Source: Oscillospiraceae bacterium (GTDB taxonomy: Bacteria; Bacillota; Clostridia; Oscillospirales; Ruminococcaceae). From it: a DNA stretch of 64,000 nucleotides. The translations under genes were made by a program, and so were the position numbers. The notes under the pieces were generated by a model that was not told where the DNA came from, made no database searches, and saw only the letters and a program-made list of their open reading frames with translations. Shown piece by piece: positions 1 through 56,133 of the stretch (its first letter is position 1; the number at the start of each line of letters is the position of its first letter). The stretch lies in assembly GCA_017415165.1 (NCBI GenBank), contig JAFQIY010000046.1, forward strand, positions 1 to 64,000. Reading direction: 5' to 3'.

Positions 1-360
1 AAAACGGAGAATGGGGTGAGAAATGCGACAGCATTTCGAGGGGAAGCGTACAAGACCGCTTCCCCTTGTTGCAGTTACACAGCAAATTAATCTCAAAAAC
101 GTGCCAGTGGCACGTTTTTGACGTAACTTTACTTTAATCACTACGCAGAAGCAGTGGCTTGCGCCACTGTTGGAGAGGCTCTCTCTTGCAGAGCCTCTCC
201 CTTTTGAAGCTACCGCTTCAAAATTCCCTCTCCAGAGCGTTTCTCAGGCAGCGCCTGCGGGCGCAAGAAAGGTTTTCGCCCTCTGCGGAGGGCGATTTAG
301 GGGCGTTGCCCCTAAAAACCCCACCAAAGGGGACACAGTCCCCTTTGGAAACCCATTATT
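1..360 (+). repeat. Multi-hairpin intergenic repeat, copy A
   Basis: About 360 nt made almost entirely of consecutive stem-loops. Visible stems pair 21-26/31-36, 40-48/57-65, 94-105/109-120, 152-158/163-169, 172-182/190-200, 202-210/215-223, 251-255/259-263, 277-283/288-294, 296-303/309-316 and 324-333/339-348. A second full copy lies inverted at 17530-17887 and a 3' fragment at 17902-17989. Stem sequences differ between copies while pairing is mostly kept. No coding gene is supported here: reading frames across it are hairpin artefacts. I do not recognise the family. It could be a structured RNA or a palindromic mobile repeat. It may continue left of the window. Confidence 0.85.
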
Positions 361-3592: not shown

Positions 3593-5125
3593 TTATTCGA
3601 TTGTCTTTGCCTTTTCAAAGATTTCAAGAACTTCATCAGAAGGCTTCTTATCAATGAGAGAAACAACAACTGTGAGAAGAATTGATGCTGCAAATCCGGG
3701 AACGATGGAGTACATAATTCCGCCGAGGTGGAGAATGTTGTCCCAGAGGAGAACTGTTGCTGCACCTGCGATAATACCTGCAACCGTACCCTTGAGGGTG
3801 AGTCTCTTCCAGTAGAGGGAGAGGAGAATTGCAGGACCGAATGCTGCACCGAAGCCAGCCCACGCATTTGATACGATACCCATAATGGAATCCTTAGGGT
3901 CAAGTGCGAGGATGCAGGCAATTACGGAAATAGCCATTACTGCACCACGGCTTACCCACATTGTTGTCTTTTCGGAAACTTCCTTCTTTACAACTACCTT
4001 AAAGAAGTCGTTTGCTACTGCGGAAGCTGTTACGAGAAGCTGGCTGTCTGCCGTACTCATAATTGAAGCAAGAACAGCGGAGAGGAAGATACCTGCAAGC
4101 ACACCCGGAAACAGCATTTTTACAACATTGATGAAGATAAGCTCCTGTTCAGCAGAAGTAGAAAGCATTGCAAGTCCGTTTGCCTCATAGTAAACACGTC
4201 CGAGGATACCGATGAGAACTGCTGCACCGAGGGAGATAAGTACCCATACAACAGCGATAATTCCCGACTTCTTAACGCTCTTGGCATCCTTGATTGCCAT
4301 AAAACGAACAAGAATGTGCGGCATACCAAAGTAACCGAGTGCCCACGCTACATCACTGATAATTGCATTTGCACTTCTGTTTTCAAAGAGAGAAGCAAAG
4401 CCGCTTGCGTCCTCGCCCTCAGCAACAAGCTTCTGAGTTGATGTAATCATATCCCAGCTGAAATTGTCAATGTTGCTGATAAGTGCGATTGGAAGTGCGA
4501 CAATTGCAAGGAACATAAGCAGTCCCTGAATGAAGTCTGTCCACGCAACAGCATTGAAGCCGCCCATAAGTGTATAAGCGATAATGATAAGTGCTGAAAT
4601 AATTACAGCAGCCTTAGTGTAGGTTTCGTTAGTGCTGTCGATATTGAATACAACCTGGAAAAGCTTGCCGCCCGAAACAAAAGCGGAAACTGTGTACACA
4701 AGGAAGAACACGAAGATTACTACCGCACATACAAGACGTACAATCGGGCTGTCAGCCTTAAATCTGTTCTGGAGATACTGCGGAATTGTAATTGAGTCGC
4801 CTGCCGCTTCTGTGAAACGGCGGAGTGGTTTTGCAACGAATGCCCAGTTGAGAATTGTACCGATTGCAAGACCGATTGCAATCCAGTAGTTGCCCATACC
4901 TGTTGCAAAAGCCGCACCCGGCAGACCCATCAGAAGCCATCCGCTCATATCGGAAGCCTGCGCTGACATAGCTGTTACCCAGCTGTTCAGTCCACGACCT
5001 GCGAGGAAATATTCGTTCATATTTTTGCTCTTATTGGAGAAGTAGAAGCCGATTGCAAGCATTACTGCAAGATAACCGATAAATGCCACAAGCACTAACG
5101 GGTCGGCATTTTGGAAAAACCCCAT
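3593..5125 (-). CDS. putP: Sodium/proline symporter (SSS family)
   Basis: 510 residues with about 13 hydrophobic segments, the normal size for PutP. It imports proline with sodium across the cytoplasmic membrane. The second helix region carries LAGRGLNSWV and then SAQASDMSGW, with D59 in the place of the conserved Asp needed for sodium binding in PutP. The Ser/Thr/Ala-rich helices and the Gly-rich segment after residue 315 also fit the family. A ribosome site, AAAGGA, precedes the ATG. Upstream, 5126-5297 holds a short G/A-rich repeat, so it may be transcribed apart from deoB. Substrate choice within the SSS family is inferred from overall similarity. Confidence 0.92.
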   Translation of the reverse strand: MGFFQNADPLVLVAFIGYLAVMLAIGFYFSNKSKNMNEYFLAGRGLNSWVTAMSAQASDMSGWLLMGLPGAAFATGMGNYWIAIGLAIGTILNWAFVAKPLRRFTEAAGDSITIPQYLQNRFKADSPIVRLVCAVVIFVFFLVYTVSAFVSGGKLFQVVFNIDSTNETYTKAAVIISALIIIAYTLMGGFNAVAWTDFIQGLLMFLAIVALPIALISNIDNFSWDMITSTQKLVAEGEDASGFASLFENRSANAIISDVAWALGYFGMPHILVRFMAIKDAKSVKKSGIIAVVWVLISLGAAVLIGILGRVYYEANGLAMLSTSAEQELIFINVVKMLFPGVLAGIFLSAVLASIMSTADSQLLVTASAVANDFFKVVVKKEVSEKTTMWVSRGAVMAISVIACILALDPKDSIMGIVSNAWAGFGAAFGPAILLSLYWKRLTLKGTVAGIIAGAATVLLWDNILHLGGIMYSIVPGFAASILLTVVVSLIDKKPSDEVLEIFEKAKTIE

Positions 5126-5210
5126 TATAACCCTATCCTTTCATAATATATTATTCTAATATTTTACCATAAAAATTAACAAAATGTATGAACTTACGGT
5201 AAATTATGAG

Positions 5211-5306
5211 TTTGGAGTGTGAAGAGTGGAGTGTGGAGTTGTAACGCTGACTTCGCTCCTCACTCCACTAAACGAACTTGTTCGTTTTTCTATCTCCTCA
5301 CTCTAA
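5211..5306. repeat. Short G/A-rich and C/T-rich intergenic repeat
   Basis: Repeated GAGTGGAGTGTGGAG-like units face their complements CTCCTCACTCCAC, around a small hairpin (AAACGAACTTGTTCGTTTTT at about 5270-5289). The right end runs into the deoB stop codon: the TGA at 5298-5300 is part of a GAGTGAGGAG unit. A related fragment lies at 18008-18040, next to the multi-hairpin repeat. Confidence 0.7.
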
Positions 5307-6410
5307 AAATTCCATTACCATATCCGCGCAGGCTGTGTAGCTTTCTGTCACGCCGAGATTTTTCGGAGCAGCCTTTTTTCCGTACACAAGAAGCGGCACG
5401 GTTTCACGGGTGTGGTCCGTACCCTTGTAGCAGGGGTCACAGCCGTGGTCAGCGGTAATCATAATCACTTCATCATTGCCAATCATCTCCATAAGCGTGC
5501 CAAGCTGTTCGTCAAAACGATTCAGTGCATTGGTGTATCCCTCAACGTCACGGCGGTGACCGTAGCTCATATCAAAATCAACTAAGTTAACGAAGCAAAG
5601 TCCGTTAAAATCACGCTTTGCGTAGCCGAAGGTCTTTTCCATACCGTCATCGTTGCCGCTGGTGCGGACAAACTCGGTTATGCCCTTGCCAACAAAAATA
5701 TCGTTGATTTTTCCCACGGCAATGACGTCCTTACCTGCGTTTTTCAGCTTGTCAAGCATTGTTTCAGCAGGCGGCTCGATGGAAAAATCGTGGCGGCGTG
5801 AGGTGCGTGTGAAAGGGTACTCGCCCTCGAAAGGACGTGCAATAACTCTGCCTACACCGTGTTCACCAACAAGAATTTTTCTCGCAATTTCGCAGTATTC
5901 GTACAGCTTTTCCACAGGAACAACGCTTTCGTGCGCCGCAATCTGGAACACGCTGTCTGCTGAGGTATAGACGATAAGCGCACCCGTTTCCATATGCTCC
6001 CTGCCGTAATCCTTGATAACCTCCGTGCCCGAATAGGTCTTGTTACATAGCACCTTTCTGCCTGTTGCCGCAGAAAACTTGTCGAGGATATCCTGCGGAA
6101 AGCCGTTGGGGTAAGTGGGAAGCGGATTTTCGGAAATTATGCCGGCGATTTCCCAGTGACCGATTGTGGTGTCCTTGCCCATTGACTTTTCCGTCATTCG
6201 TCCGTATGCACCGATTGGATTTTCACAAGGCTCGCCGTAGTCCATACCATCGATGTTGAACAGACCAAGCTTACGCATATTCGGCACGTTCAGCCTGCCC
6301 GTATTATAACAGCTTCTGAACGTATCAGCACCCTTGTCACCGAACTTTTCAGCGTCGGGGGCGTTGCCGATACCTGCACTGTCGAGGACTATTAAAAATA
6401 CTCTTTTCAT
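5298..6410 (-). CDS. deoB: Phosphopentomutase
   Basis: 370 residues, slightly short of the roughly 390 usual for DeoB. It interconverts (deoxy)ribose 1-phosphate and 5-phosphate in nucleoside salvage and catabolism. It is an alkaline-phosphatase-superfamily metalloenzyme: the N-terminal VLDSAGIGNAPDA supplies metal ligand D10, and the C-terminal ITADHGCDP followed by GTDHTRE supplies the second metal cluster. The cap domain, with the phosphorylated Thr in KDTTIGHWE, lies in between. It lies downstream of deoC on the same strand; DeoC consumes the deoxyribose 5-phosphate it makes. A 124-bp gap separates it from the unknown gene before it, so a separate promoter is possible. Confidence 0.96.
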   Translation of the reverse strand: MKRVFLIVLDSAGIGNAPDAEKFGDKGADTFRSCYNTGRLNVPNMRKLGLFNIDGMDYGEPCENPIGAYGRMTEKSMGKDTTIGHWEIAGIISENPLPTYPNGFPQDILDKFSAATGRKVLCNKTYSGTEVIKDYGREHMETGALIVYTSADSVFQIAAHESVVPVEKLYEYCEIARKILVGEHGVGRVIARPFEGEYPFTRTSRRHDFSIEPPAETMLDKLKNAGKDVIAVGKINDIFVGKGITEFVRTSGNDDGMEKTFGYAKRDFNGLCFVNLVDFDMSYGHRRDVEGYTNALNRFDEQLGTLMEMIGNDEVIMITADHGCDPCYKGTDHTRETVPLLVYGKKAAPKNLGVTESYTACADMVMEFLE

Positions 6411-14733: not shown

Positions 14734-17481
14734 ATGGCTAAGATAACTCTTGACTGGAATAAATATATTAATAAGTCACGTCAGGTTGCCGCTGAGGGCG
14801 TTGTGATGCTGAAAAACGACAACAGCGTGCTTCCGCTTGACAAGGACAAGTGCACAGCTGTTTTCGGACGTATTCAGAGTCACTACTACAAGAGCGGTAC
14901 AGGCTCAGGGGGACTTGTAAATGTTACCGAGGTTGTGGGCATAACCGAGGGACTTCTGCGCTGTGGTGCAAAGCTTAATCAGGAGCTGATTGACACCTAC
15001 GCAAAGTGGGAGGAAGAAAACCCATTCGACAACGGTGCAGGCTGGGGCGGCGAGCCTTGGTCACAGAAGGAAATGCCCCTCGATGATGATTTTGTTGCGC
15101 ACATTGCAGCTGAGTCAGACTCCGCCGTGGTAATTATCGGACGTACCGCAGGTGAGGAGCAGGACAGCTCACCTGTTGAGGGGTCTTATCTTCTCAGCGC
15201 ACTTGAAAAGGAAATGCTTTGCAAGGTTCGTAAGCATTTCAGGAAAATGGCGGTGCTTCTCAATGTGGGCGGCGTGATTGATATGAGCTTTGTGAAGGAG
15301 ATTAACCCTGACTCTGTTCTTTACGTCTGGCAGGGCGGTATGGTTGGCGGACTTGGCGTTGCTGACGTGCTCCTCGGCACAGTCAACCCTTGCGGCAAGC
15401 TTGCTGACACGATTGCTGAAAAGCTTGAAGATTACCCTGCTTACAAGTATTTCGGCGACCCTGTAAGAAACTTCTACTGCGAGGATATTTATGTGGGTTA
15501 CCGCTACTTCGAAACGTTCGCTCCTGAAAAGGTGCTTTATCCTTTCGGCTACGGTCTTTCCTATACAACATTTGAATTTAAAACAGTTTCCGCTACTTCC
15601 GACAGCGAAAAGATTACTCTTGAAATCAAGGTGAAGAATACTGGCAGTTACGCTGGCAAGGAAGTTGTGCAGGCTTACTGCGAAGCACCGCAGGGCAAGC
15701 TTGGCAAGGCAGCAAGAGTGCTTTGCGGATACGAAAAGACAAAGGAGCTTGCACCGAATAAGGAACAAGTTCTCCGCATTGAAATTCCGATGTACAGCAT
15801 TGCTTCCTACGATGACACAGGTGCAAGCGGACACAAATCCTGCTATGTTCTTGAAGCAGGTACATACAATATTTATGCAGGCGGAAACGTTCGCTCTGCG
15901 GCTTGTGTTTACAGCTTTGATATCGCTGAAACAACCGTTGCTGAACAGCTTACCGAGGCACTCGCCCCTGTTCTCCCCTTCGAAAGAATGGTAAACCGTG
16001 ACGGCAAGGCTGTTATGGAAAATGCACCTCTTGCTGAATTTGATATGGACAAGCAGCGTGCTGAAAATCTTCATGCTGAAATTTTGCAGACAGGCGACAA
16101 GGGCATTAAGCTTTCTGATGTAAAGCGTGGCAAGGCTGCAATGGACGATTTTATCGCACAGCTTACTGACGAGGAGCTGTCCTGCATAATCCGCGGCGAG
16201 GGTATGGGAAGTCCGAAGGTTACCCCCGGTACGGCTTCTGCTTTCGGTGCGGTTTCACAGTGCCTTGCTGACAAGGGTATCCCCTGCGGCTGTTGCTCGG
16301 ACGGTCCGTCGGGTATGCGTCTTGACTGCGGAACAACCGCTTTCAGTATCCCTAACGGCACGCTTATCGCCTGCACCTTCAACAAGGAACTTGTTACTGA
16401 GCTGTTTGAATTTATGGGCAACGAGGTTGCGGCGAATAATGTTGAATGCCTGTTGGGTCCCGGTATGAACATTCACCGCTATGTTCTCAACGGACGTAAT
16501 TTCGAATATTTCAGCGAGGACCCTTACCTTACGGGTACAATGGCGGCATCTGAGCTCAAAGGCTTGCACAAGTTCGGTGTTACGGGCACGGTCAAGCATT
16601 TCTGCGGCAACAATCAGGAGACTCACCGTCACGACATTGACTCGGTTGTTTCAGAGCGTGCGCTCCGTGAGATTTACCTCAAAGGCTTTGAGATTGCTGT
16701 CAAGGAAGGCAAGGCTTGCTCCGTGATGACGACCTACGGCTCGGTAAACGGCTTGTGGACAGCTGGCAATTACGACCTTGTAACAACAATTCTCCACAAC
16801 GAATGGGGCTTCAAGGGCATTGTAATGACTGACTGGTGGGCTAACATCAACGAGCGTGGCAAGTCCCCTGACAAGAGCAATTTTGCGGCAATGGTGCGTG
16901 CACAGAATGACATTTATATGGTTTGCTCCGATGGTTCGAGAAATTCAGCAAACGACAACACACTTGCTTCACTTGAAAACGGCACGCTGACCCGTGGTGA
17001 GCTGCAGAGATGTGCAAAAAACATATGCGAGTTCCTTATGGGCACACGTGCGATGGACAGGGTTGAGGGCGTTGCTGACGAGTTTGAGATTATCAACCGC
17101 CCAGGCGACGATGATGATTTTGACGCGGCAAATGTTGTGTTCCACAAGCTTGACGGAACAGTTACAATCCCGCTGGAGGACATCTGCACCGACAAGAAGA
17201 CTTCCTATGTGTTTGCACTTGACATTGTACGCTGCGGCAAATTCCGTGCGACGATTACTGCTAAATCCGATATGAGCGAGCTTGCACAGATGCCTGTTAC
17301 GCTGTTTACGATGGGCACGCCTTGCGGCAACTACACCTGGAACGGCACAAACGGCGAATGGGTTTCCATTTCCCGTGACGACATCAATCTGTTCTCACGC
17401 TTTACGGCTTGCAGACTTTATTTTGCACAGAGCGGCTTGAAGCTTCGTGATATTACTTTTGAGATTATTCAGGAATATTAA
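14734..17481 (+). CDS. GH3 beta-glucosidase with permuted domain order
   Basis: 915 residues. Domain order is inverted relative to ordinary GH3 enzymes. The beta-sandwich normally placed C-terminally comes first (starting RQVAAEGVVMLKNDNSVLPL at residue 16), a fibronectin-III-like domain follows (VKNTGSYAGKEVVQAY near 292), and the TIM-barrel catalytic domain is last (LGPGMNIHR, GRNFEYFSEDP, VKHFCGNNQE). The nucleophile is D700 in VMTDWW. The same order is known from Ruminococcus albus and Butyrivibrio beta-glucosidases. There is no signal peptide, so it hydrolyses imported beta-glucosides in the cytoplasm. It diverges from the sugar ABC operon and ends at a strong terminator. Confidence 0.94.
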   Translation: MAKITLDWNKYINKSRQVAAEGVVMLKNDNSVLPLDKDKCTAVFGRIQSHYYKSGTGSGGLVNVTEVVGITEGLLRCGAKLNQELIDTYAKWEEENPFDNGAGWGGEPWSQKEMPLDDDFVAHIAAESDSAVVIIGRTAGEEQDSSPVEGSYLLSALEKEMLCKVRKHFRKMAVLLNVGGVIDMSFVKEINPDSVLYVWQGGMVGGLGVADVLLGTVNPCGKLADTIAEKLEDYPAYKYFGDPVRNFYCEDIYVGYRYFETFAPEKVLYPFGYGLSYTTFEFKTVSATSDSEKITLEIKVKNTGSYAGKEVVQAYCEAPQGKLGKAARVLCGYEKTKELAPNKEQVLRIEIPMYSIASYDDTGASGHKSCYVLEAGTYNIYAGGNVRSAACVYSFDIAETTVAEQLTEALAPVLPFERMVNRDGKAVMENAPLAEFDMDKQRAENLHAEILQTGDKGIKLSDVKRGKAAMDDFIAQLTDEELSCIIRGEGMGSPKVTPGTASAFGAVSQCLADKGIPCGCCSDGPSGMRLDCGTTAFSIPNGTLIACTFNKELVTELFEFMGNEVAANNVECLLGPGMNIHRYVLNGRNFEYFSEDPYLTGTMAASELKGLHKFGVTGTVKHFCGNNQETHRHDIDSVVSERALREIYLKGFEIAVKEGKACSVMTTYGSVNGLWTAGNYDLVTTILHNEWGFKGIVMTDWWANINERGKSPDKSNFAAMVRAQNDIYMVCSDGSRNSANDNTLASLENGTLTRGELQRCAKNICEFLMGTRAMDRVEGVADEFEIINRPGDDDDFDAANVVFHKLDGTVTIPLEDICTDKKTSYVFALDIVRCGKFRATITAKSDMSELAQMPVTLFTMGTPCGNYTWNGTNGEWVSISRDDINLFSRFTACRLYFAQSGLKLRDITFEIIQEY

Positions 17482-17529: not shown

Positions 17530-17887
17530 AATAATGGGTTTCCAAAGGGTGTGCGCACCCTTTGGTAGGGTACTTAGGGACAGCGTCCCTAAGTCGCTCT
17601 CCGCAGAGAGCGAAACTCTCGCTTGCGCCCGCAGGCGCTGCTTTGAAAACGCTCCGCAAGGGTGAATTTTGCAACCGTGTTGCAAAAGAGGGACGCCCTG
17701 CACGAGAGGGCGTCCCTAACAGTCGCGAAGCTACTGCTATTCTTGAGCAATGAAAGTAAAGTTACGTCAAAAACGTTCCACTGGAACGTTTTTGAGGAAT
17801 GTTCTGTCTGTACTTGCAACAAGGGGAAGCGGTCGTGTCCGCTTCCCCTCGAAATGCTGTCGCATTTCTCACCCCATTCTCCGTTTT
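17530..17887 (-). repeat. Multi-hairpin intergenic repeat, copy B
   Basis: A full-length inverted copy of the element at 1-360, reading on the minus strand. Conserved linkers such as GACGTAACTTTACTTT and GCAGCGCCTGCGGGCGCAAG are shared, while stems differ by paired changes. Examples: CGTGCC/GGCACG in copy A is CGTTCC/GGAACG here, and the stem at 172-200 of copy A differs at four positions, all compensated here. One pair (A opposite G) in the fourth stem is lost. No coding gene is supported. Confidence 0.85.
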
Positions 17888-17901
17888 AGAACGATTGGGG
17901 T

Positions 17902-17989
17902 GTTTCGCCGTCTGCGGACGGCGATTTAGGGGCGTTGCCCCTAAAAACCCCACCAAAGGGTGCGAAGCCCCCTTTGGAAACCCATTATT
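17902..17989 (+). repeat. Multi-hairpin intergenic repeat, 3' fragment (copy C)
   Basis: Only the last three hairpins of the element, in opposite orientation to copy B and starting 15 bp from its 5' end. The first stem reads CGCCGTC/GACGGCG, against CGCCCTC/GAGGGCG in copy A and CGCTCTC/GAGAGCG in copy B, so three versions keep pairing around the same TGCG loop. Confidence 0.8.
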
Positions 17990-18082: not shown

Positions 18083-19603
18083 TCAAACAATAAGTGACTT
18101 ACCTGTCATTTCTGCCGGCTGTGGTACGCCGAGAATCTGGAGCATTGTTGGTGCGATATCTGCGAGTACGCCGCCTTCACGGAGCTTGCAGTCGCCGCAG
18201 CCTACAACAATCAGCGGAACTGGGTTTGTTGTATGTGCTGTGAATGGTGAGCCGTCAGCTTCCATAAGCTTATCAGCGTTGCCGTGGTCGGCTGTGATGA
18301 TTGCTGCACCGCCCTTTGCGAGGATAGCGTTTACCATTCTGCCTACGCACTCGTCAACAGCTTCAACTGCTGCTGTTGCTGCTTCGATGATACCTGTATG
18401 TCCAACCATATCGCAGTTAGCATAGTTGAGGATAATAACGTCATACTTATCGGAGTCGATAGCCTTTTCAACTGCGTCTGTAACCTCGTATGCGCTCATT
18501 TCAGGCTTCATATCGAAGGTTGCAACCTTTGGAGAGTCGATGAGAATTCTGTCCTCGCCCTCAAAAGTTGTTTCCTCTCCGCCGTTGAAGAAGAATGTAA
18601 CATGAGCATACTTCTGTGTTTCAGCGATACGGAGCTGAGTCATACCCTGCTTGCTGATGTATTCGCCGAGGGTCATTGTGAGAGCCTCTGGAGGGAATGC
18701 AACGGAAACGTTTGGCATTTCAGCGTCGTACTGAGCCATACAAACGAAATTGAGCGGGAAGAAGCCGTTCTTTCTTTCAAAGCCTGTGAATGCTTCGTCA
18801 ACGAAGGAACGTGTAATCTGTCTTGCACGGTCAGGACGGAAGTTGAAGAAGATTACGCTGTCGTCAGCAGCAATCTTGCCGTTTGTATCAACAACTGTAG
18901 GAAGCATAAATTCGTCTGTTACGCCGTTTGCATAAGAATTCTTGATAGCTTCAACAGGGTCGGTTTCCTTAACGCCTTCGCCGTAAACAAGTGCAGCATA
19001 AGCCTTTTCAACACGGTCCCAAGCGTTGTCACGGTCCATAGCGTAGAAACGACCTGCGATTGTTGCAACAGAGCCTACGCCGATTTTGCCGATTTCAGCA
19101 ACAAGTTCTTCCATATATTCAGCAGCGGAAGATGGCGGAACGTCACGTCCGTCGAGGAAAGCGTGAACGTAAACCTTGTCAAGACCGTTCTTCTTAGCCA
19201 TTTCGAGGAGACCGTAGAGGTGTTCCATATGGCTGTGTACGCCGCCGGGGGAAAGAAGTCCCATAAGGTGGAGTGCACTTCCCTTAGCCTTACAGTTTTC
19301 GATAGCGGAAACGAGTGCAGGGTTTGTGAAGAAGTCGCCGTCCTTGATAGACTTGGAAATCTTAACGAGCATCTGATAAACAATTCTGCCTGCACCGATG
19401 TTGGTGTGACCAACCTCGGAGTTACCCATCTGACCGTCAGGGAGACCAACGTCAAGACCTGAAGCGCCGATGATTGTGTTGGGGCACTCAGCAAAATACT
19501 TGTCAAGGTTAGGCTTCTTTGCAGCAGCAATAGCGTTGCCGTAATCGGAGTTATTGATGCCGTAGCCGTCCATAATAATTAAAGCAAGAGGTTTTTTGCT
19601 CAT
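18083..19603 (-). CDS. gpmI: 2,3-bisphosphoglycerate-independent phosphoglycerate mutase
   Basis: 506 residues from the ATG at 19603 (AAAGGA lies properly before it; an ATG at 19621 is upstream of that site). It converts 3- to 2-phosphoglycerate in glycolysis using two manganese ions. [15 protein letters not shown] gives the first metal Asp. [19 protein letters not shown] contains the phosphorylated Ser and substrate-binding residues. [10 protein letters not shown] supplies the second metal set. It follows tpiA and a small membrane gene on the same strand, a usual glycolytic grouping. A long terminator follows. Confidence 0.97.
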
Positions 19604-19621
19604 TGGAATTATTCCTTTCAA

Positions 19622-30301: not shown

Positions 30302-31741
30302 ATGTTCTGTGTATACTGCGGTGCTAAAATGCACGATAACGGCAAATTCTGTCCGCAATGCGGAAAGCCTGTAAAATCTGCACAGCCTGCTCCCGTTGAG
30401 GAAGCTGTTCCTGTGGAGGAAGTTGCTCCTGTTGAGGAAGTTACTCCCGTTGTGGAAGCTGCTCCCATTGAGGAAGCTGCTCCTGTTGAGGAAGCTGCTC
30501 CTGTTGAGGAAGTTACTCCCATTGTGGAAGCTACTCCCATTGAGGAAGCTGCTCCTGTTGAGGAAGCTGCTCCTGTTGAGGAAGTTACTCCCATTGTGGA
30601 AGCTACTCCCATTGAGGAAGCTGCTCCTATCGAAGAAGCTGCTCCTGTTGAAGAAATTGCTCCTGTTGAAGAAATTGCTCCTATCGAAGAAACTGCTCCT
30701 ATCGAAGAAGCTGCTCCTATCGAAGAAGCTGCTCCTATCGAAGAAGCTGCTCCTATCGAAGAAGCTGCTCCTATCGAAGAAGCTGCTCCTGTTGCGGAAA
30801 CTCCCCCTCAGGTTAACACGGCAAAGCCCGCAAAGAAAAAAAGTCTTGCAAGAAAAAATCTTTCAGCAGCACTTGCTTACATAATTTCTGCGGCTGTTGT
30901 GGCGGGACTCGGCTTATATGTTATTCCTAAGCTTGCTTTTAACCCTGCATTGGAAAAAACTGCGGAAAGAAGTACTCCCGAAGCGGCACTTGCTCTTTAC
31001 AAAGCTGCCGGAAACGATGATGCTGTTTATGATACAAAATTCGCGCTTGCACAAAAAGCTCTCGAAAGTGAGAACTACGCTTATGCGGCTGCACTTTTCA
31101 GCGAGCTTAAAAATGCTGAATACGCTGCTGACAAGAGTCTCATATCTTATGTTGATGAAGCTTTCGGCGGCAGATGCCGCGTACTTATAAACGGCGGCAA
31201 ACACAACCTTGCTGTGGCTGACTCCACACAGATTTCCGATGAACTTCTCAGTGCAGGCATTATAAATGACGCTATTATTTCCGATGCGAAAGTTCTGTCC
31301 GCTGAGGGCAAGACTATCGAAGCCTATGAAGAAGTGTCAAAAATCAACACATCTGCGGCATACGATTCTGAGTCCTACAACATCATTGTCTACAACTATG
31401 CCGTTGAATTCTACAATGAAATGAAGTTCGCCGAAACCTATGAAATTCTTGCAAACGCAACTGACGAGGCTTCAATCGAACTGCGCCGTTCTTCTGCGTA
31501 CTACATAGCAAATGATTTCCTTAAAGACAAGGATTACGAAAAGGCTATCGAAATGTACGAAAAGGCTGAGGGCTTCAGCGACTCTGCTGAGAAAATCAAG
31601 CAGTGCAGCTATCAGCTTGGTCTGAGATGCTACAATCAGGGTCAGTTTGAAGCGGCACTTGAATATTTCGAAGCTGCTGACGGCTACGGCACATCCGATT
31701 TCTATGTGCAGAAAATCAAGGGCAAAAGGACAATTATCTAA
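30302..31741 (+). CDS. Zinc-ribbon membrane protein with hexapeptide repeat and TPR-like tail
   Basis: 479 residues in four parts. A zinc ribbon (FCVYCGAK, FCPQCGKP; residues 2-23) is followed by a low-complexity stretch of about 22 hexapeptides of the form VEEAAP or IEEAAP (about 30-165), a basic segment with one membrane helix (about 178-205), and a helical TPR-like domain to the end (YEKAIEMYEKAEGFSDSAEK and similar). The architecture suggests a cytoplasmic zinc ribbon on a long rod joined to an extracellular repeat domain. Function unknown. It is probably cotranscribed with the membrane gene downstream. Confidence 0.88.
   Translation: MFCVYCGAKMHDNGKFCPQCGKPVKSAQPAPVEEAVPVEEVAPVEEVTPVVEAAPIEEAAPVEEAAPVEEVTPIVEATPIEEAAPVEEAAPVEEVTPIVEATPIEEAAPIEEAAPVEEIAPVEEIAPIEETAPIEEAAPIEEAAPIEEAAPIEEAAPIEEAAPVAETPPQVNTAKPAKKKSLARKNLSAALAYIISAAVVAGLGLYVIPKLAFNPALEKTAERSTPEAALALYKAAGNDDAVYDTKFALAQKALESENYAYAAALFSELKNAEYAADKSLISYVDEAFGGRCRVLINGGKHNLAVADSTQISDELLSAGIINDAIISDAKVLSAEGKTIEAYEEVSKINTSAAYDSESYNIIVYNYAVEFYNEMKFAETYEILANATDEASIELRRSSAYYIANDFLKDKDYEKAIEMYEKAEGFSDSAEKIKQCSYQLGLRCYNQGQFEAALEYFEAADGYGTSDFYVQKIKGKRTII
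30384..30800 (+). repeat. 18-bp coding tandem repeat with a 72-bp higher-order unit
   Basis: An 18-bp unit such as GTTGAGGAAGCTGCTCCT repeats about 22 times. A 72-bp block encoding VEEVTPIVEATPIEEAAP plus VEEAAP occurs three times with few changes. Near the end, CCTATCGAAGAAGCTGCT is repeated almost exactly five times. All units keep the reading frame. Confidence 0.92.
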
Positions 31742-37956: not shown

Positions 37957-38200
37957 AAGAAAAGCCCCCTGACAAAAGTCAGAGGGCGAATTATCGCGGT
38001 ACCACCTCAGTTTGTCAAAAGGCAAGCTTTTGACCTCGAAACGCTTTAACGGGCGTACCCGTGCACCCCTACTATCCGCAGATTTGTTCAGGGAACAAGC
38101 TCAGTGATGTATTCGCCGCAGTTCGTCACCTTTTTGCACCGTCCAAAGGCTCTCTTTATCAGAATTGTGCGGTTACTTCTTCACTTCGTTGCATTTGATT
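37957..38200 (-). promoter_or_regulatory. T-box leader, tyrosine specifier
   Basis: Minus-strand RNA with the T-box parts in order: AGAGAG (38150-38155), a stem I distal part GGACGGTGCAAAAAGG, GCGAATACATCACTGAGC with specifier UAC (Tyr) at 38109-38111, the T-box sequence GAGGTGGTACCGCG (38008-37995), and a terminator stem 37978-37987 with 37964-37973 followed by TTTTCTTTTT. The UGGU bulge would pair with ACCA, matching the A73 discriminator of tRNA-Tyr. Uncharged tRNA-Tyr should favour the antiterminator. The first gene is the radical SAM gene, and tyrS comes sixth. Confidence 0.93.
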
Positions 38201-44147: not shown

Positions 44148-45322
44148 CACGTCACCTCATACTGATACCAGATTGTTCCCTCAGGTGCTGTTCCGCTTGG
44201 TTCTTCGGTTGAAATAATTACATTACGCACCTGTGCAACGGTATAATCCGTGTTGCTCTGAGCAACCAGCGTGCCCGTCATTGTTCCTCCCGAAAGCGGC
44301 AGATAATCCTCGTCCGAGGAATTGACAGCAGCGGAAATCACGCCGTTTTCATCAATCGTAACAGTTGTACCATCAACCTTTACACCGCCAAGCACTGACT
44401 CAGACGCAGCAGGAAGCGTGTAAACCGTGTCAGTGAAAACAGCGTCCTCAGGAACGTCAGTGCCGACTGTTTTTCCGTTGACGGAGTTGACTGTCACAGC
44501 ACCGTTTCCGCCAACTGTTATGTCACCGCCTGAAAGTACGCCGCCAAGCCTTGACTCTGTAGCAGGAGCAATAACAGCTGCACCTGTTCCGTCAGAACCG
44601 CCTATAACGGAAATCACACCGTTCTCATCTGCCGTAACGGTCGTCCCGTCAACCATAACACCGCCCTTTACGGTTGTTGAAGCGGTAGGAAGCGTGTAAA
44701 CCGTGTCCGTAAAAACAGCATCCTCAGGAACGTCAGTGCCGACAGTTTTTCCGTTGACGGAATTGACTGTCACAGCACCGTTTCCGTCAACTGCGATATC
44801 ACCGCCCGACAATACGCCTCCAAGCTTTTCTTCCGTTGCAGGTTCAATAACAGCCGTACCCGTTATATCGCCGTTTTCAATTCCGTCAATAACCCTTTGC
44901 ACCTCAAGCTGAATCTGATTGTAAGCCTGTTCAAGAATTGTCGGCGACTCAAGGAAATCAAGCCGTGCGTCGTCATTGATTAAGACAGGCTGAGAAATAA
45001 ATTTGACCTGTACCGTATTTTCAGTATTGATACCCGCAAGAACAAGCGTTACCTCTCCGCTTGAAACAGTAAAATCAGATGTAACCTCCCAAAGAAGATG
45101 AATGATTTCATCGGTAATTCCGTCCATATCAAGCACCTGCTCCGCTACGGTTTCATTTGCCTTTGATACCGCCGTCAGACGGAAGCTGAACTTTGAAAGG
45201 TCGTGTTCGCCGTACATTCTCGGTACGGTTATCCCCACCACATCAGCACCGTATTCGCCCTCAGTGATATTTCCGTCAAGGTCCTGCGTTATAAGCCGTT
45301 TGCAAATTACCTTTAATTCCAT
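44147..45322 (-). CDS. BppU-like baseplate upper/fibre protein with duplicated repeats
   Basis: 391 residues from the ATG at 45322, with TGGAGG before it. The N-terminal 150 residues resemble the BppU N-domain that attaches fibres to siphophage baseplates. Two copies of an approximately 90-residue unit follow, each with LGGVLSGGDI, AVTVNSVNGKTVGTDVPED and VYTLP, typical of repetitive trimeric fibre shafts. The end has LPLSGGTMTGTLV, a tail-fibre sign. It is the first gene of a four-gene phage-type cassette with no capsid or terminase nearby. Confidence 0.8.
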   Translation of the reverse strand: MELKVICKRLITQDLDGNITEGEYGADVVGITVPRMYGEHDLSKFSFRLTAVSKANETVAEQVLDMDGITDEIIHLLWEVTSDFTVSSGEVTLVLAGINTENTVQVKFISQPVLINDDARLDFLESPTILEQAYNQIQLEVQRVIDGIENGDITGTAVIEPATEEKLGGVLSGGDIAVDGNGAVTVNSVNGKTVGTDVPEDAVFTDTVYTLPTASTTVKGGVMVDGTTVTADENGVISVIGGSDGTGAAVIAPATESRLGGVLSGGDITVGGNGAVTVNSVNGKTVGTDVPEDAVFTDTVYTLPAASESVLGGVKVDGTTVTIDENGVISAAVNSSDEDYLPLSGGTMTGTLVAQSNTDYTVAQVRNVIISTEEPSGTAPEGTIWYQYEVT

Positions 45323-55344: not shown

Positions 55345-56133
55345 TTGGAAAATAAAATTGAAAATATCATACCTCAAGGATTTACGGGAATATGGATTGA
55401 CCGGGAAATATTACTTCAAGATAATTTATCCCTTAATGAAAAAATTATCATTTCCATTATCAAGAGTTTTGAAGAAAATCAAAGTGAATGCTTTGCATCA
55501 AACAAATTCTTTTCAAAGGTTTTAAATCTGTCCTCCAAAAGAGCCTCTGAAATAATTAATGGTCTTGTAACAAAAGGCTTTATTACCTCTGAAACAATAT
55601 TTCGTAAGAACACAAAAGCAATAGAAAAACGTATTTTAAGGATAAATAATGCTATTACCTATCCCGATATGTCGGGATACCCTCCCCCGAGAAATACGGA
55701 TACCCCTCCCGAATTTTCGGGATACCCTCCCCCGAGAAATACGGAAGATATAATAAATATATATAATAAACCTTATAATAAAAATTATATAAAAAATAAT
55801 AAATGCTCAAATTTCGAAAATTTGAGCGACGATGTTTCAGATGAATTTATTGCTGAAAAAGCAATTGAATTTTATTTTGATACATATTTCGAGTATCACA
55901 GTACACTTCACCCAAATCTGAAAACTGAACAACTCAACCGAGTTAGAGAAGAATTAAGCTTTCGTATAAATGAATTCTATTTATCCCTTGAAGATGTTCA
56001 GGAAATGACCCTGTACTTTTTTGAACACCCTCCCAAAGGTTCTGACGGAAATATAAACTTGTTTGTTGAAAGAAGCGTTTTTGTCCGGGTGGGTTATTCA
56101 ACAGGAGTGATTTCGGGATATACTGAATTATAG
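55345..56133 (+). CDS. Replication initiator-like wHTH protein
   Basis: 262 residues from the TTG at 55345 with AAAGGGTGA before it. An N-terminal winged helix at about 30-100 (LNEKIIISIIKSFEENQSEC, FFSKVLNLSSKRASEIINGL) is of the HTH_36 kind seen in phage and plasmid initiators. A low-complexity linker repeats GYPPPRNT, and a helical C-terminus follows. The linker codons form exact DNA repeats with an AT-rich tract after them, as in initiators with an origin inside the gene (lambda O type). Function inferred from this layout. Confidence 0.75.
   Translation: MENKIENIIPQGFTGIWIDREILLQDNLSLNEKIIISIIKSFEENQSECFASNKFFSKVLNLSSKRASEIINGLVTKGFITSETIFRKNTKAIEKRILRINNAITYPDMSGYPPPRNTDTPPEFSGYPPPRNTEDIINIYNKPYNKNYIKNNKCSNFENLSDDVSDEFIAEKAIEFYFDTYFEYHSTLHPNLKTEQLNRVREELSFRINEFYLSLEDVQEMTLYFFEHPPKGSDGNINLFVERSVFVRVGYSTGVISGYTEL
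55661..55826 (+). other. Putative replication origin inside the initiator gene
   Basis: A perfect 29-bp direct repeat (55672-55700 and 55717-55745) with a degenerate third unit between gives GGATACCC at 55675, 55698 and 55720, about two helical turns apart. Inverted forms overlap them: TATCCCGA/TCGGGATA at 55661-55680 and TCCCGAA/TTCGGGA near 55707-55722. Then comes an almost pure A/T tract at 55747-55803 and a 23-bp palindrome at 55804-55826. Iterons followed by an unwinding tract are the usual origin plan. Confidence 0.72.

Follow-up and report, generated by a model that had tools for sequence, protein, structure and literature searches.

The window, by which we mean the whole 64,000-nucleotide stretch analyzed here, carries two copies of an interspersed repeat, non-coding and about 460 bp long, that is bounded by inverted ends (AATAATGGGTTTCCAAAGGG...). 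Copy B, the complete one, occupies 460 bp on the minus strand (17530..17989) in the gap between two convergent genes, a GH3 glycosidase gene (14734-17481, plus strand) and an iPGM gene (18083-19621, minus strand), each of which flanks it by its 3' end. Copy A (1..360, plus strand) lies downstream of an arabinofuranosidase gene. Its left-hand cut is the contig end: the first base of the window is also that of contig C45 in an assembly of 2.62 Mb and 75 contigs (G000, hereafter the source genome), so that A has been broken off by the assembly and, compared with full copies, is short by about 100 bases, its left inverted end. The first-pass annotation of this DNA had taken 1-360 as a ten-hairpin unit. 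That unit is too short, as A is cut by the contig end and B extends to 17989 with an inverted end.

The left inverted end of B (17530..17616) comprises three hairpins (17542-17565, 17572-17594, and 17595-17612) and is an inverted match to both A 274-360 and 17903-17989. The right inverted end (17903..17989), which lies beyond the unit first described, likewise has three hairpins (17906-17923, 17925-17945, and 17953-17977) and matches A 274-360 directly at 92% identity. The plan of the element is therefore that of a core, running from H1 to H7, between two inverted ends that measure about 87 nt and hold three hairpins apiece. A possible extra hairpin of the full element, on the minus strand at 17870..17902 (CACCCCA with TGGGGTG), straddles the edge of the unit first described and, by eye and uncounted, has paired changes in L004, L002, and L011. 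Several copies carry an extra inverted outer flank ending in AAATTATAATTT, so the exact termini of the element are uncertain. A long leader hairpin (AATTATTTT...AAAATAATT; for example in L064, L068, L098, and L128) often precedes the end motif in Ruminococcus flavefaciens-like genomes; it stands directly before AATAATGGG, and its stem is hypervariable between copies yet paired.

A (1-360) aligns with B (17887-17530, minus strand) over its full length, as first reported; the alignment has 370 columns and a mean column identity of 89%. Pairing was scored in 13 copies. Five hairpins, given here by their positions on the plus strand of A and then in B, are 100% paired: H1 (20..37; 17851-17868) with 7 pairs, 3 of them double-changed; H3 (93..121; 17767-17795) with 5 of 13; H5 (172..200; 17689-17717) with 7 of 11; H6 (202..223; 17667-17687) with 5 of 9; and H8 (277..294; 17595-17612) with 5 of 7. 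H2 (39..66; 17822-17849) is 99.2% paired, with 4 of its 10 pairs double-changed, and H4 (152..169; 17720-17736) is 98.9% paired, with 4 of 7. H10 (324..348; 17542-17565), which adjoins the element end, is 97.2% paired and has 2 of 11 pairs double-changed, and H9 (296..316; 17572-17594) is 93.2% paired, with 5 of 9. The weak H7 (A 236-264) is broken in many copies and was excluded from all stem counts. Those individual changes claimed between A and B that were checked are correct: four changed and kept pairs in the stem at 172-200 (172/200, 174/198, 177/195, and 180/192), two in that at 202-223 (207/218 and 209/216), and a sole broken pair, A opposite G, in the fourth stem of B (156/165).

The folds of A and B have z-scores of -13.6 and -9.8. 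Perfect hairpins (arms of at least 9, loops of 3 to 8) number 26 in the window, 13 of them in A and B, against 1, 0, 0, 1, and 0 in five first-order random controls. Small palindromes such as AACCAAACGCTTGCGTTTGGTT stand inside or between element hairpins in L011, L012, L050, L108, and L133, as if inserted; the 14-base core occurs five times in the source genome.

Copies in the source genome and its relatives

In the source genome, the element gives 36 BLAST matches, 10 of which cover at least 340 of the 360 query bases, and a 17-mer near the element end is present at 33 places when up to two mismatches are allowed. Six of the seven nearest inward-facing end pairs span 453-459 bp (C7, C33, C36:6086, C36:38813, C45, and C54); the seventh, C36:25247, spans 418 bp. 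An additional, shorter variant on C18 has a right end with more mismatches. End pairs at similar spacing are also seen in L138, and L122 (approximately 5020-5510) contains, by eye, a further element about 480 nt long; its ends are similar, whereas its core is different and has inverted GACAGCGTGAGGAAAGCAAATAGAAC.

Matches were found in 18 of 61 genomes: the source genome, 15 further members of its genus, and 2 genomes from other genera within the family. The exact end 20-mer was found in 96 stretches of named genomes; among the 80 listed by title, 77 were Ruminococcus or Oscillospiraceae and one each was Bacillota, Angelakisella, and Binatia. The same 20-mer was not found in viral contigs, and copy B had no match among phages or plasmids; we ruled out a phage or plasmid origin on the absence of matches in those collections.

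Copies lie mostly in gaps between genes. Among 173 places with the element or its end motif, 80 are between codirectional genes, 26 between convergent genes, and 19 between divergent genes, with 43 at contig edges and 5 inside open reading frames (ORFs) of at least 90 aa (316, 113, 382, 592, and 103 aa). Contig C36 makes up 2.2% of the assembly but holds 6 of the 24 places in the source genome, around dnaA, dnaN, recF, and gyrB, a clustering (p=1e-5) that was noticed first and tested afterwards. One stretch of this contig (L230, G000:C36:35500-45500) has copies in three gaps from dnaA to gyrB and one just after gyrB.

The same gaps differ in content between close relatives. At the site of B, the closest relatives are G011 and G017, in which the iPGM stretch is 96-97% identical (in G017 over 830 of 911 bases). 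G017 lacks the element there, and G011 keeps a remnant, one terminal hairpin with both ends; 17 further relatives have unrelated sequence downstream of iPGM and are hence uninformative on B. After dnaN (C36:38810), G011 and G017 have element-free gaps of 78 and 84 bp. Before gyrB (C36:40923), G011 has no copy and G017 a shortened one, and between dnaA and dnaN (C36:36974) the source genome, G011, and G017 each have a different set of modules. Other palindrome-rich fillings occupy some of the dnaA-gyrB gaps in G001, G003, and G006. None of these sites provides a base-exact empty site with a duplication, that of B in G017 being nearly exact, and by eye no consistent direct repeat stands beside the ends, whose outer boundary is uncertain.

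Bacterial MITEs are short and non-coding, have terminal inverted repeats (TIRs), and occur in many copies. The element shares all of these features, with TIRs of about 87 nt, and differs from MITEs in that neither a target duplication nor a matching insertion sequence was found for it. A MITE in the strict sense, mobilized by a DDE transposase that belongs to an insertion sequence not found in this assembly and with hairpins that serve as protein sites, would explain the TIRs, the near-constant length, the missing coding capacity, and the many copies; we consider it rather improbable, since no target duplication was seen and no insertion sequence with these ends occurs in the source genome. 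No end pair in that genome (a 93% complete assembly) encloses a kilobase- or ORF-sized insert, and no autonomous parent was found among these end pairs. In L073, ends that lie 2.5 kb apart enclose ORFs that by eye are not transposase-like.

Our search for transposase families covered Y1 alone. Y1_Tnp (PF01797) had no match in G000, G001, G003, or G011, the four highest-copy genomes checked, and mobilization by a RAYT or IS200 enzyme was rejected for these four. The family is present in 1 of 13 genomes of the same genus (G004) and in 6 of all 21 searched.

Paired changes and wobble asymmetry

Paired changes are a standard proof of RNA structure. The covarying stems first noticed in A and B are real: over 13 copies and 84 base pairs, 98.7% of 1,092 stem cells hold standard pairs, against 86.5% in shuffles (sd 0.6; 0/500 as high), and 40 of the 84 pairs are double-changed, against 25.3 in shuffles (0/500 as high). 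Sliding the partner by 1 to 3 columns leaves pairing at only 41-51%. Further pair types numbered 50, against 60.9 in shuffles, and 500/500 shuffles equalled or exceeded the observed value, so this measure does not exceed the shuffles. The scored rows were drawn from 19 near-full copies, leaving out L050 (insertions), L032, L034, and L049 (ends missing or divergent), L038, and L054. Stems are thus kept in the other copies, not broken as often as kept.

The claim that the linkers are nearly unchanged holds for the outer ones, 1-19 and 349-360, where none of 31 bases differs between A and B. It fails for the three inner linkers, 67-92, 122-149, and 224-276 (which includes weak stem 7), where 11/26, 9/28, and 14/53 bases differ; these account for all of the 34 differences in 138 linker bases. 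Over 17 copies (the 19 near-full copies without L038 and L054, the 3' halves of which are divergent), per-site differences are 0.283 in linkers, 0.231 in stem arms, and 0.171 in loops. The lower value for loops than for linkers argues against a neutral mosaic, in which leftover palindromes repaired by template switching would spread by duplication and recombination without mobility or function at the level of the element. Gaps that mix several palindrome families and small palindromes inside hairpins agree with such a mosaic; the near-constant, TIR-bounded length and the fixed order of hairpins do not, and we regard it as very improbable.

Stem alleles more often differ by a whole pair than by a single base. 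Among 141 of them (91 perfect), 92 allele pairs are one base pair apart with both arms changed, against 25 that are one base apart. Between copies of the element, stem pairs differ on both arms at 0.211 and on one arm at 0.040; the corresponding values for RNase P are 0.087 and 0.047, at lower divergence. Double transversions number 664 of 2,189 in the element (30%) and 123 of 479 in RNase P (26%), and their share was dropped as a discriminator between RNA and DNA because of this similarity. Among copy pairs with the same H5 allele, the H6 allele is also the same in 0.80, against 0.14 overall, whereas H8 and H9 alleles are scarcely linked (0.14 against 0.10). H2 of L008 resembles a chimera of two alleles. 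Between the orthologous copies L008 and L113, several whole stems differ with pairing kept, and linker positions differ too.

A strand that is kept as RNA tolerates G-U pairs and not A-C pairs. In 206 distinct sequences of the nine hairpins, counted without the T-box and Y1 loci, 1,984 pair cells comprise 1,844 Watson-Crick pairs, 27 GT, 41 AC, and 72 others on the strand read in the first-pass annotation. Predicted pairs of RNase P RNA from 11 genomes of the same genus gave GT 124 and AC 2 after pairs failing a 75% filter were dropped and the truncated L229 was removed from 12 sequences; its covarying pairs gave 13 and 1. In 63 terminator-like hairpins, allowed up to two mismatches and at least one of them resembling a hairpin of the element, the counts were GT 20 and AC 7. 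Two other controls were set aside: tRNAs (GT 7 and AC 0 of 128 pairs), a sample too small at just 6 distinct tRNAs, and T-box leaders, which were too diverse to align.

The ratio of 27:41 differs from that of RNase P (p about 2e-21) and from that of terminators (p=0.003). We take this to speak strongly against RNA selection on the strand first read, where the G-U over A-C asymmetry of RNase P and terminators is missing; on that strand, the inference from compensatory change to selection on RNA structure is not supported. Read on the complementary strand, the ratio of 41:27 is again unlike that of RNase P (p about 2e-12, or 0.028 when its covarying pairs are taken) and is not distinguishable from that of terminators (p=0.24). 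Its GT excess comes from H9, without which the ratio is 20:22 (p=0.045 against terminators). In an automatic consensus fold, which favors G-U, covarying pairs gave GT 11 and AC 5 on the strand first read and GT 15 and AC 6 on the other.

Two observations lean toward RNA on the complementary strand. Between codirectional genes, 28 copies are antisense and 13 sense on the strand first read (p=0.028; 69 copies examined), and the leader hairpin, which could be counted in 68 of 116 upstream sequences, the other 48 having no good hairpin, shows 1,018 Watson-Crick pairs, 28 GT, 7 AC, and 33 others. Because the complementary-strand ratio is indistinguishable from that of terminators, a role in 3' UTRs on that strand is possible. 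A structured RNA, likeliest on the strand beginning AATAATGGGTTTCC, with a 3' UTR role in mRNA stability or termination and with covariation that reflects RNA selection, would also fit the strong fold of either copy and the loops, which differ least between copies. We nevertheless judge it unlikely: even without H9, the strand first read has GT 22 and AC 20, against 124:2 in RNase P, and the same gap differs in content or is empty in close relatives. Nor does the element match an Rfam family at gathering score; a permissive scan around B gave as its best hit inside the element CC2171, with 16.8 bits against the 75 needed (E 0.33). Known RNA families were ruled out on this absence.

A probable mobile-like element and its likeness to known repeats

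The first-pass annotation had left a choice between a large structured RNA and a palindromic mobile element. Length, inverted ends, and gap content favor the second; the first is not supported on the strand for which it was proposed. The interpretation that we favor, with some confidence, is that of a palindromic DNA element, non-autonomous and mobile-like (MITE- or BIME-like), of intergenic gaps in a Ruminococcus-like genus, with arms that are matched at the DNA level. It fits better than RNA because of the near-constant, TIR-bounded length, the mostly intergenic copies, and the presence or absence of copies in close relatives. Copies would move or be copied between sites, by an enzyme acting in trans or by replication. 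The arms would stay complementary as the polymerase copies one arm from the other during replication, the template switching that corrects quasi-palindromes; this is probably the source of the arm matching. Hairpins and alleles may also be exchanged between copies by recombination, which could yield part of the paired-change pattern, and effects on neighboring mRNAs (3' ends and termination) would be secondary.

That paired changes can arise by template switching, with both arms altered in one event, has been published by Monttinen and Loytynoja (PMC8794818), who propose template-switch maintenance of hairpins in rRNA and microRNA genes and call their evidence for the maintenance of short stems circumstantial. 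Our proposal differs in concerning a dispersed DNA repeat. More speculatively, the element may be a transposase-free hairpin replicon, enriched around the dnaA-gyrB region, that is both copied and kept palindromic by template switching at replication forks, with covariation that reflects no RNA function; we hold this to be a minor possibility. The family warns that paired changes need not imply a working RNA. Its hairpins have many alleles and few intermediates, and the strand first read lacks the wobble asymmetry of an RNA, so it offers a natural test set for RNA selection against DNA-level copying from arm to arm.

Among known repeats, REPs are single palindromes of 20-40 bp that carry a GTAG tag and often come with a RAYT gene; in stems of the GTAG type, frequent GT pairing is reported and taken as a sign of RNA (PMC3733652). 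Like the REPs and BIMEs described there, the element is intergenic, high-copy, and palindromic, has alternative complementary residues in its stems, and can be grouped (PMC3733652). Unlike them, it is 460 bp long, strings together at least ten different hairpins in a constant order, has no Y1 match in four high-copy genomes, and rarely shows GT pairs. By its tag, too, the element is no REP: GTAG or CTAC stands within 6 nt of the stem in 3 of 117 hairpin instances (nine hairpins in 13 copies) and inside the hairpin in 7. The same source also describes CGTC-tagged palindromic repeats that are dispersed and for which it reports that no dedicated transposase was found (PMC3733652); they resemble the element as dispersed palindromes and differ, as described there, in being short single hairpins with another tag. 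Hairpin repeats of sponge mitochondria are dispersed in intergenic regions as well, and their mechanism of spread is discussed as uncertain (PMC2800124); these belong to organelle genomes, and the likeness is one drawn from their description. Among the papers listed in literature searches on MITEs, palindromes, or REPs of Ruminococcus, and in a general one, none describes the family, which would make it a repeat family of gut Ruminococcus relatives that seems to be new to the literature.

The window has other features as well. At 30315-30871, 21 register-shifted copies form an array with a period of 18 bases, and two 186-nt direct repeats, 85% identical and with starts 276 nt apart, lie at 44403-44864. 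Two adjacent 45-nt copies at 55656-55745 are 89% identical, and a T-box leader is found on the minus strand at 37979-38198.
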